Shown: piece after piece, positions 24,235 to 61,260 of the stretch
How the letters are laid out: each line of letters starts with the position of its first letter
How positions within the stretch are numbered: the stretch's first letter is position 1
Assembly: GCA_000230955.3 (NCBI GenBank)
Contig: CP007060.1
Coordinates: 2,486,216-2,550,215 of the forward strand
Length of the DNA: 64,000 nt
From: Halobacterium sp. DL1
Lineage (GTDB): Archaea; Halobacteriota; Halobacteria; Halobacteriales; Halobacteriaceae
Direction: 5' to 3'
Made by a program: the position numbers and the translations under genes
Notes under the pieces: generated by a model
The model's input: only the letters and a program-made list of their open reading frames with translations
Database searches by the model: none
What the model was told of the DNA's origin: nothing

Positions 24235-25293
24235 TCAGTCCGCGGAGCCGACGATACCAGCGTCTCGCAGGTCGTCGCCGTCGACGCTCGTCCGGTAGTC
24301 CTCCTCGGCCATCCCGTCGAAACGGTCGACACCGAAGTTGTCGGCGTAGAGGTCCGCGACGCGCTGGCGCTCCTCGTCGCTGACGGCGGGCGTCTCGGGT
24401 GCAGCCGCCCACTCGTCGATGTCGTCCTTCGAGCGGAACGTCGGCGTGACGGACGCGACCTCGTCGAAGCTGAGCAGCCACTGGATGGCGGCCTGGCCCA
24501 GCGTTCGGGCTCCGTCTCGTTCGAGGAAGCGCAGTTTCTCGATCTTCTCCCAGCCCGTCTCGTACCACTCGTCCGGGCGGAAGCCGCGGTGGTCGCCCTC
24601 GCCGAGCTCCGTCTCGGGCGTCACCTGCTCGTTCAGGAGCCCCGAGGAGTGTGGGACGCGGGGGATGAGCGACGTGGCGGCGCCCGTCTCGCGCACCGTC
24701 TCCACGAAGTGGTTGTGGACGTCCTGCTCGAGGAGGTTGCCGACGTACTGGACGCCGTCGAAGGCTTCCTCGATGGCGAAGTCGCCCTCCGCGAGCCAGC
24801 CGATGGACGGGCCGAGCGCGACGCCGATTGCCTCCGCGCGGCCGTCCTCGCGGAGTTCGTCGAGGAGTTCCAGCACGTCCGGCGTGAGCTCCGAAACGTC
24901 CGGATTGTGGAGCTGGAGGTAGTCCACGCTGTCGACGCCGAGTCGGTCGAGACTCCCCTCGACGGCGTCCCGGAGGTACTCGGCGTCCATCTCCTTCGGG
25001 AGTTCGCCGTGGCCCGCCTGCGGGTTGTTGTAGAAGTCGTAGCCAACCTTCGTCGCGACTGTCATCTCGTCGCCGCGCTCGGCGAGCACCTCACCCAGCA
25101 GTTCCTCGCTGCGGCCGTGCCCGTAGACGTCGCCCGTGTCGAAGTACGTGATACCCGCGTCGAGCGCGTACTCCACCATCTCGAGCGCGTCGTCCTCGTC
25201 GCGGTCACCCCACCAGTCGGTGCCGACGACCCACGCGCCGAAGCCGACCTCGCTGACCTCGACCCCGGAGTCCCCGAGTTCGCGGTGTTGCAT
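24235..25293 (-). CDS. Aldo/keto reductase
   Basis: A 352-residue NAD(P)H-dependent oxidoreductase with the (beta/alpha)8 AKR fold. Catalytic residues are visible as D and Y in YFDTGDVYGHGRSEELLG (about residues 54-71), K in TVATKVGYDF, and H in DYLQLHNPD. The loop at about residues 85-110 is of the length seen in bacterial/archaeal AKRs. The substrate is unknown. Start ATG 25293 (MQHRELGDSGVEV) matches the family N-terminus. Confidence 0.92.
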   Translation of the reverse strand: MQHRELGDSGVEVSEVGFGAWVVGTDWWGDRDEDDALEMVEYALDAGITYFDTGDVYGHGRSEELLGEVLAERGDEMTVATKVGYDFYNNPQAGHGELPKEMDAEYLRDAVEGSLDRLGVDSVDYLQLHNPDVSELTPDVLELLDELREDGRAEAIGVALGPSIGWLAEGDFAIEEAFDGVQYVGNLLEQDVHNHFVETVRETGAATSLIPRVPHSSGLLNEQVTPETELGEGDHRGFRPDEWYETGWEKIEKLRFLERDGARTLGQAAIQWLLSFDEVASVTPTFRSKDDIDEWAAAPETPAVSDEERQRVADLYADNFGVDRFDGMAEEDYRTSVDGDDLRDAGIVGSAD

Positions 25294-25386
25294 GCGCGGA
25301 GGTTGGAGGGTCCGTCACTTAGCGAGTGCGGTTCCGGCGTCACGAGTTGTACCAAGTTTCTCTGCCAGATTCATCTATACCACCCC

Positions 25387-25500
25387 GAAAGCCCCGGCCA
25401 GGTACGGTCGCGCGCCTCGCTGTGCTCCTCGCTCCCGCTGGTCGCTGCGGTGCTTGCTTCGGCGTGCTTCCCGTACCTGGCCGCCCCTTTCAGTCCCACC
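25387..25500 (-). ncRNA. Covarying structured element, copy 1 (unclassified)
   Basis: Read on the minus strand: box 1 GGTGGGACTGAAAGGGGC (25500-25483), a 12-nt arm GGCCAGGTACGG (25482-25471), a 63-nt inner region, the exact complementary arm CCGTACCTGGCC (25407-25396), then box 2 GGGGCTTTC (25395-25387). GAAAG of box 1 can also pair with CTTTC of box 2. The inner region contains GAAGCAAGCACCGCAG and GAGGAGCACAGCGAG, shared with copies 2 and 3. The stem sequence differs from the other copies yet pairs perfectly. Either a structured RNA or a hairpin mobile element would fit. I cannot place it in a named family. Confidence 0.6.
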
Positions 25501-25523
25501 GACTGACTGACCAACCGGCAGGC

Positions 25524-25639
25524 TGGGACTGAAAGGGGCGAGGCTGTGGACAAAGACGGACGACGCAAGCACCGCAGGGAGCGACGCGACCGAGGCGCGC
25601 AGCGAGTCCATCGAGTCCACAGCCTCGGGGCTTTCTACG
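25524..25639 (+). ncRNA. Covarying structured element, copy 2 (unclassified)
   Basis: Box 1 TGGGACTGAAAGGGGC (25524-25539) is followed by arm GAGGCTGTGGAC (25540-25551), a 63-nt inner region, the complementary arm GTCCACAGCCTC (25615-25626) and box 2 GGGGCTTTCTACG (25627-25639). The inner motifs are GACGCAAGCACCGCAG (25562-25577) and GAGGCGCGCAGCGAG (25592-25606). The inner length is identical to copy 1 (63 nt). It is head-to-head with copy 1, only 23 nt apart, leaving no room for two separate promoters between them. Confidence 0.6.
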
Positions 25640-25750
25640 CGGTAGAGAGAGTCCCACCAGCTGACTCCGAATACACGCAGTCACAACAGTAAAGCGGGGG
25701 TTCCCGTCGGTACGGAAACCACTATCTGTGACCACGGCCCACTACGACGC

Positions 25751-26662
25751 ATGACCAAGCGACGCGTCTCGCTCCCCGACGGCGCGGAGGCCACGCTCCG
25801 CGGGTTCATCGCGGAGGTGGACGACCGGCTCGCGGCGGCGAGCGACCCGGACGCGCTCTCAGAGGCCGTCACCGAGATCCTCGTGGACCTCCACGGCGAC
25901 CGGGACGCCTACGAGGCGTGGCGGAACGACGAGAGCGTCTCGCCCGTCGAGGCGGCGCGGCTGTCGAACTACGACCCGCGGAACGCCACGCTCGAATCGG
26001 AGTACTACGCCGAGAAGGACGAGGAGGCGTTCGCCCGCTCGAAGCCACTGCAGTGGCTCTGGCGGCAGTTCGACAACTCGCCGCTGGCTGACAACGTGGA
26101 GTTCGCCCACCGGTTCCGCCGGACGGTCGCCGACCACCTGTTCGCGGACGTCGGCGAGGACGTCCGCCTGTTCCGGGGCATCTCGATGACGTACGGCCAC
26201 AACATCGAACTCGGTGACAACGTCGTGGTCCACGACGACGTCCACCTCGACGACCGCGGCGAACTCGTCGTCGGCGACCGCGCGAGCGTCAGCGACGGCG
26301 TCCACGTCTACACCCACGACCACGACATCGTCGACCAGACCGCGGTGGACAACTTCCGGACGATCATCGGCGACGACGCCCGCGTCACGCAGGGCGCGAT
26401 GGTCAGGGCTGGCGTCCGCATCGGGACCAACGCCATCGTCGGCGCGCGCTCCGTCGTTCAGGCCGACGTCCCGGACCACCACGTCGCGGTGGGGATGCCC
26501 GCGAAGAGCGTCAAGGTGAAGCCGGGCTGGGAGTCGGACGCCGACCCGCTCGAGGACGCCAACGAGAACCGGCGAGAGGAGCGCCGCCTCCCCGTCGACC
26601 TGTCGGCTGAGGTCGACACGTACGACGAGTTCCAGCGCGACCTCCAGCCACCGGACGCGTGA
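25751..26662 (+). CDS. Left-handed beta-helix acyltransferase (maltose/galactoside O-acetyltransferase-like)
   Basis: A 303-residue protein. The N-terminal half is helical. Residues about 130-255 show the hexapeptide repeat pattern of trimeric acetyl/acyltransferases (GDNVVVHDDVHLDDRG, VVGDRASVSDGVHVYTHDHD, VRIGTNAIVGARSVVQADV). The catalytic histidine is expected in the THDHD loop. The C-terminal tail after MPAKSVKVKPGW is acidic. The acceptor is unknown, possibly a sugar or lipid. It follows the two structured elements at 25387-25639. Confidence 0.85.
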   Translation: MTKRRVSLPDGAEATLRGFIAEVDDRLAAASDPDALSEAVTEILVDLHGDRDAYEAWRNDESVSPVEAARLSNYDPRNATLESEYYAEKDEEAFARSKPLQWLWRQFDNSPLADNVEFAHRFRRTVADHLFADVGEDVRLFRGISMTYGHNIELGDNVVVHDDVHLDDRGELVVGDRASVSDGVHVYTHDHDIVDQTAVDNFRTIIGDDARVTQGAMVRAGVRIGTNAIVGARSVVQADVPDHHVAVGMPAKSVKVKPGWESDADPLEDANENRREERRLPVDLSAEVDTYDEFQRDLQPPDA

Positions 26663-29340: not shown

Positions 29341-29411
29341 TGCGCCGGCCGGGAGTTGAACCCGGGCTATGAGCTTGGGAAGCTCATGTCCTACCACTAG
29401 ACCACCGGCGC
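29341..29411 (-). tRNA. tRNA-Gly(CCC)
   Basis: A 71-nt cloverleaf read on the minus strand. The acceptor GCGCCGG pairs with CCGGCGC, D arm GUCU/GGAC, anticodon stem UGAGC/GCUCA with loop UUCCCAA (anticodon CCC), T stem CCGGG/CCCGG with loop UUCAACU, and discriminator A. CCA is not encoded. Its 3' end is repeated in fragments immediately downstream. Confidence 0.95.
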
Positions 29412-31876: not shown

Positions 31877-31948
31877 GCCTGGGTAGCTTAGCGGTAAAGC
31901 GCGTCCTTGGTAAGGACGAGACCCCGGATTCAAATTCCGGCCTAGGCT
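31877..31948 (+). tRNA. tRNA-Thr(GGU)
   Basis: A 72-nt cloverleaf. The acceptor GCCUGGG pairs with CCUAGGC (one G-U), anticodon stem CGUCC/GGACG with loop UUGGUAA (anticodon GGU), T stem CCGGA/UUCCGG-type with loop UUCAAAU, and discriminator U. CCA is not encoded. It reads on the plus strand after the DUF7114-like gene. Confidence 0.95.
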
Positions 31949-61135: not shown

Positions 61136-61260
61136 TGGGCGGACTGAAAGGGGCGGCACGCTCGCGCTTGCTTGTTCTCTCGCGACGCAAGGACCGCAGG
61201 CCGTCAGGCCGAGGACCACAGCGAGCGAGCGGACGCGAGCGTACCGGGGCTTTCTACGGG
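61136..61260 (+). ncRNA. Covarying structured element, copy 3 (unclassified)
   Basis: Box 1 TGGGCGGACTGAAAGGGGC (61136-61154), arm GGCACGCTCGCG (61155-61166), a 67-nt inner region, arm CGCGAGCGTACC (61234-61245, one C-A mismatch), box 2 GGGGCTTTCTACGGG (61246-61260). Inner motifs GACGCAAGGACCGCAG and GAGGACCACAGCGAG match those of copies 1 and 2. It lies between the SnoaL-like gene and tsr3. Confidence 0.6.

Follow-up and report, generated by a model that had tools for sequence, protein, structure and literature searches.

What kind of element has identical boxes in two copies whose stems are unrelated in sequence and still pair perfectly? This question is raised by two hairpin repeats in the window, by which we mean the whole stretch of 64,000 nucleotides from Halobacterium sp. 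DL1 that was analysed. The right-hand repeat (25525–25635, + strand) consists of box 1 GGGACTGAAAGGGGC (25525–25539), a 5′ stem arm GAGGCTGTGGAC (25540–25551), an inner part of 63 nt (25552–25614), the second arm GTCCACAGCCTC (25615–25626) and box 2 GGGGCTTTC (25627–25635). The left-hand repeat (25387–25497, − strand) has the same layout, with box 1 at 25483–25497, the 5′ arm GGCCAGGTACGG at 25471–25482, an inner part of 63 nt at 25408–25470, the second arm at 25396–25407 and box 2 at 25387–25395. The centre of the pair (25498–25524) contains the near-palindrome GACTGACCAACCGGC, in which the family motif ACCARCCGGYA is found in both directions. The pair is flanked on the left by an aldo/keto-reductase-like gene (24235–25293, − strand) and on the right by an acyltransferase-like gene with the look of a hexapeptide-repeat protein (25751–26662, + strand), both named from the appearance of their sequences only; their start codons lie 93 and 115 nt, respectively, from box 2 of the adjacent copy. 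The initial annotation had described a head-to-head pair here with shared boxes, inner parts of equal length and 12-bp stems that pair perfectly despite their unrelated sequences; each of these points was confirmed. Compared with shuffled controls, both copies have far more stable folds (z scores of −5.1 and −5.2).

A covariance model, R1, was built from 12 copies found in the same genome. In the window it scores 133.1 bits for the right copy (25521–25643), 123.4 bits for the left copy (25379–25501) and 86 bits for a single third copy at 61140–61254 (+ strand), which the initial annotation had also counted; everything else scores 14 bits or less. The third copy has its stem at 61155–61166 and 61234–61245, with one C/A mismatch, and its box 2 at 61246–61254. 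Three occurrences of box 1 with up to two mismatches are found in the window, where 0.12 would be expected. The sole Rfam matches in the window are two tRNA genes (29341–29411, − strand; 31877–31948, + strand). It had been stated that the element could not be assigned to a named RNA, and this agrees with our searches of Rfam, in which no family exceeded its gathering score and a search at E ≤ 10 gave nothing credible; the matches below the gathering scores were of microRNA type and at chance level only. The literature, searched by box sequence and by topic, gave no name or description of the family, the nearest being the SMR analogy discussed below, and this haloarchaeal repeat family of ~112 bp is apparently undescribed.

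The non-coding unit of ~112 bp reads GGGACTGAAAG, GGG and C, followed by 12 variable base pairs, an inner rod with purine loops, the 12 pairing positions, and G, GGG and CTTTC. In the fold common to the family the outermost layer is a GAAAG/CTTTC helix, followed by a 3 × 3 GGG/GGG loop, a C–G pair and the 12 variable pairs, inside which short helices are separated by the conserved purine-rich loops GAC/GA, AA/GCA, A/C and GCA/GA. Two sub-families can be distinguished, A (GGACTGAAAGGGGC...GGGGCTTTC), to which both copies of the window pair belong, and B (GGATTGAAAGGGCGAG...CGAGGGCTTTC). The genome of the window (3.16 Mb, two contigs) contains about 40 copies, of which ~39 are clear and few are degenerate. 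The initial annotation had proposed a covariance search of haloarchaeal genomes, and many copies were indeed recovered: R1 has matches in 63 of the 98 genomes tested and in 27 of 41 genera, with from none to at least 36 copies per genome, some of these genomes being incomplete and the E values of the matches rough. Within the genus of the window the number varies from 0 to 36 per genome among the matches listed, so that the distribution is very patchy even at this level; two further genomes hold 79 and 82 copies. A scan of ~85,000 prokaryote species for the exact box-to-box pattern found it in haloarchaea only, among the matches listed. The copies are present on both chromosomes and plasmids, and none was found in viral collections. 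The other outcome that had been envisaged, matches limited to the ends of one insertion sequence, is not what we observe.

The larger alignment also shows the covariation that had been anticipated. In 136 aligned matches 97.3% of the cells pair, compared with a mean of 71% for shuffled and at most 46% for slid versions, and changes on both sides are found in 28 of the 32 consensus pairs; the 2-bp inner helices between the conserved loops covary as well. As this alignment was itself fitted to the structure model, the stem test was repeated without one, the stems being located by the boxes alone. For 121 distinct stems located in this way 93.7% of the positions pair, whereas arms recombined across different copies pair at 54% of positions (maximum 60%). 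These 121 stems include 114 different 5′ arms. The data strongly support the view that evolution has kept the arms matching while leaving their sequence almost free to change.

The stem pairs that depart from Watson–Crick geometry indicate which strand folds. Overall there are 70 G–U pairs and 20 A–C pairs (p = 1e-7), and in stems with no more than three such positions the numbers are 49 and 8; the excess of G–U identifies the folded strand as the one carrying GGACTGAAAG at its 5′ end, that is, reading GGGACTGAAAG. Its folded form is, to judge from this pattern, RNA or single-stranded DNA. RNA is the usual cause of such an asymmetry, but a strand-specific hairpin of single-stranded DNA would have a similar, weaker effect. 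The asymmetry also bears on a reading without any selection, in which strand switching in the course of replication or repair would correct the palindromes and gene conversion would make the cores alike. Haloarchaea are polyploid, gene conversion is active in them, and cores are swapped and inverted (see below), as this reading would expect. Strand-symmetric correction, however, predicts equal numbers of G–U and A–C pairs and not the ratios of 70:20 and 49:8 observed, nor does it fit the covariation of 2-bp helices separated by conserved loops. It is disfavoured by the strand asymmetry and we regard it as improbable. Selection acting on one strand maintains the pairing.

Comparison of related genomes indicates how the copies arise and change. 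Several congeners have both of the genes that flank the window pair with an intergenic region of ~150 bp and no pair between them; the flanks at these empty sites are too diverged for exact junctions to be placed or a target-site duplication to be defined. For about half of the loci of the window's genome the element is found at the same site in the congener G010. At the 15 such sites with readable stems 84 of the 180 pairs differ between the two genomes; in 63 of these both bases have changed and the pairing is retained. Stem pairs are still formed at 97.8% of positions in the window's genome and 92.8% in G010 despite a base change of 41%. The orthologous core is nevertheless the best match at only four of the 19 sites common to G000 and G010; the remaining cores resemble those of another site or of the opposite half of a pair, and at site 286814 the entire core is of another type. 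Some cores are inverted relative to the boxes, among them four with model matches on both strands (L101 2821–2943; G010 404890–405008; G003 C52:9515–9637 and C53:68873–69003).

Near-identical units (94–99%) are rare overall. They occur in unrelated flanks within one genome (L130/L138 in Natronococcus pandeyae; L290/L061 in G003; L183/L079 in a metagenome-derived genome) and also between G011 and G003 (L269/L299 and L266/L293), although for some of them the flanks have in common only the family itself. The identity starts at GG(G)ACTG and stops just beyond CTTTC, and it follows from these limits that what moves is the unit bounded by the two boxes, which either inserts or takes the place of an older copy's core. 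A sub-family B unit in G011 has also spread in a burst as the cargo of a MITE of ~200 bp with ends GGYRGTGTTCAGATAAG and CTTATCTGAACACTGCC, of which there are near-identical recent copies (those with the sub-family B hairpin are L271, L272, L274, L276, L278, L279 and L281–L284). Whole units have thus been copied to intergenic positions with unrelated flanks, and at sites that already had a copy they have been exchanged or turned round. Together with the MITE rider, these observations argue for a unit that is mobile in origin. They also qualify the claim of the initial annotation that compensatory change is the signature of selection on structure. The covariation and the preference for G–U over A–C bear this out, but part of the change is due to the copying, swapping and inversion of whole hairpins, which alters both arms at once, so that co-mutation at a single site is not the sole source.

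Some additional observations concern individual copies. In the region upstream of endA in two genomes of the Natrinema clade the units at the same site (L321 and L325) are 99% identical within flanking intergenic DNA that is only ~80% alike, and the unit is absent from three near relatives. A second double-hairpin repeat of ~59 nt (GTGGTTCGAGAGAGC..GCTCTCTCGTCATCACGAAAG..CTTTCGAAC), the stems of which also vary, lies within four copies, either in the inner part or in an arm (G000:C1 1859140–1859320, 2385698–2385879, 2385902 onward and 2481850–2482030; also listed for L016, L040 and L027). The palindromic module CTGGTGGTCGCCGGGAGAGC..GCTCTCCCGAGGCCTCGGAAATCGGAGATTTC takes the place of the usual upstream motif in L278, L279, L281, L284 and L289 and near 2735886 of G000:C1, and another, GGAAGAC..GTCTTCC, is found in L261, L269 and at G000 138839.

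The positions of the copies relative to genes are constrained. With a simple codon-usage gene caller all 40 copies of the window's genome are intergenic, as are 125 of 126 pattern-located copies from other genera, the exception overlapping a called gene; the gene calls behind these counts are crude. In 30 copies of the window's genome the 3′ end precedes a start codon, typically by 71–130 nt, and in 10 it faces a stop codon, typically at a distance of 32–66 nt; for the 126 copies of other genera the distance to the start codon also peaks near 100 nt. All 37 close pairs in five genomes are head to head and centre on a near-palindrome built from two ACCARCCGGYA motifs. We claim no bias in orientation relative to replication (p = 0.05 in the window's genome and 0.08–0.83 in four others). 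No TATA-like site was found in the 60 nt upstream of any of 123 copies, and T4 or longer occurs within 30 nt in only five of them; accordingly, neither a promoter nor an intrinsic terminator is supported. The genes enclosed by the head-to-head copies 2242595 and 2244838 were considered and set aside, being ordinary ones that happen to lie between single copies independent of each other. On Natrialbaceae plasmids (L223, L228, L229 and L231) an orthologous copy, the stem of which shows compensatory change in place, lies ~550 bp upstream of a gene for a protein of ~290 amino acids with a weak OB-fold match; this gene was rejected as a general partner, the association being confined to one orthologous locus.

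Such regular placement would suit a structured RNA with a function in the host. Here the + strand, within RNA that crosses the intergenic region, would fold to a protein-binding rod through which transcripts are processed or insulated ahead of the following promoter or gene end; where two copies stand head to head, the genes on both sides would be shielded. One-strand selection with tolerance of G–U, compensatory change in place at orthologous sites, the scarcity of degenerate copies and the 3′ end facing a gene at similar distances in many genera are all consistent with this. Constant distances are, however, also expected from short intergenic regions in which insertions are tolerated only in the middle. 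The numbers of TATA-like sites and T-tracts given above, the nearly equal numbers of +E+ and −E− contexts (39 and 30) and a presence that is very patchy even within a genus also count against it, and we consider a host RNA possible but less likely than the reading preferred below, of which it is the main rival. A more specific form has a similar, slightly lower probability: a haloarchaea-wide class of structured RNA with tens of intergenic sites per genome, spread by the block copying of hairpins and acting on transcripts that cross intergenic regions, in which one protein would read the boxes and purine loops and leave the 12-bp stem free in sequence.

A mobile unit calls for a mobiliser, and the candidates sought were not found, which counts against the mobile-repeat reading. 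Reverse transcriptase (RVT_1) is absent from all 98 genomes. Of 25 good genomes with ten or more copies, 13 lack the Y1_Tnp/RAYT transposase; it is missing from complete genomes in which the copies number between 33 and about 80, and no association was found. No gene family recurs as a neighbour. Hairpin units, inverted pairs and folding of one strand recall REPINs, but these results, together with stems that are not conserved in sequence as those of REPs are, largely refute REPINs moved by a RAYT or IS200-like Y1 transposase, or a retron or group-II-type retroelement, as the present-day mobiliser, and we consider this explanation very improbable. If there is no RNA-templated copying, the one-strand selection must target either single-stranded DNA while the unit is being mobilised or RNA within the host.

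In our view, the window pair are probably members of a haloarchaea-wide, non-autonomous family of hairpin repeats of mobile origin, to which we give a probability of roughly 0.58. Block copying combined with selection for folding on one strand appears, from the sequence comparisons, to be the best account of the data. The unit appears to be a dispersed repeat of mobile origin and not a conventional RNA gene; neither a promoter-like TATA nor a terminator-like U-tract is associated with it. A folded single strand may be what some enzyme or recombination process acts on, with recognition through the conserved boxes, the purine loops and the shape of the stem; the sequence of the stem could then drift while its pairing is maintained. 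Only copies at mid-intergenic positions, away from promoters and from the ends of genes, would persist, and head-to-head pairs would arise around a fixed palindromic centre. Against this reading, stems at long-shared sites still pair, as those of plain dead transposon copies would not; to account for this the copies would have to be under local selection or be renewed through conversion. The family is large and precisely defined, is present in at least 27 haloarchaeal genera, and shows a covariance signal of a kind usually seen only in functional RNA. It can now be tested what moves small repeats in genomes without reverse transcriptase and Y1 transposase, and whether dispersed palindromes are retained for a job. 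There is also a caution, in that perfect covariation in dispersed repeats can partly reflect hairpins copied and swapped as blocks.

Among known systems, covarying structure is shared with Rfam families, but none matches at its gathering score, and retron and group II intron RNAs require the reverse transcriptase that is missing here. ERIC elements of enterobacteria are intergenic imperfect palindromes of ~127 bp with a patchy distribution and no known mobiliser; they have a conserved consensus throughout, whereas the long stem here is free in sequence and the family belongs to another domain of life. As the stems differ from copy to copy, a shared terminal inverted repeat of the MITE type is impossible for most copies. 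REP/REPIN–RAYT systems are likewise dispersed intergenic hairpins, non-autonomous and found as inverted pairs (37 of 37 here; PMC3116915, PMC8266576), but the present family is longer (~112 bp), its stem sequence is unconserved and many high-copy genomes have no Y1 transposase. The SMR-A repeats of Haloquadratum walsbyi (HqIRS42/43/55) are non-coding, ~110 bp long with prominent inverted terminal repeats, and occur in up to 54 copies without a transposase or a target-site duplication; the HqIRS families are more than 95% identical internally and target PATE/IS605 palindromes, and 'SwitchRepeats' are positions that carry either of two different repeats, or the same repeat in either orientation (PMC3119063). 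The family described here resembles SMR-A in length, inverted ends, inability to code, copy number and the lack of a known mobiliser, and it too has sites at which a different or inverted repeat occupies the same position; some units adjoin other palindromes. It is set apart, by comparison with the published description, by low identity within the family (114 different 5′ arms among 121 stems), conserved boxes with freely varying compensated stems, pairs that are obligately head to head and a location mostly in plain intergenic sequence, and R1 has no match on the Haloquadratum plasmid PL47 or half of PL100. Our best reading is that the family would be placed as a variant of the dispersed palindromic repeats of SMR, REP and ERIC type, as a member of neither SMR-A nor REPIN.
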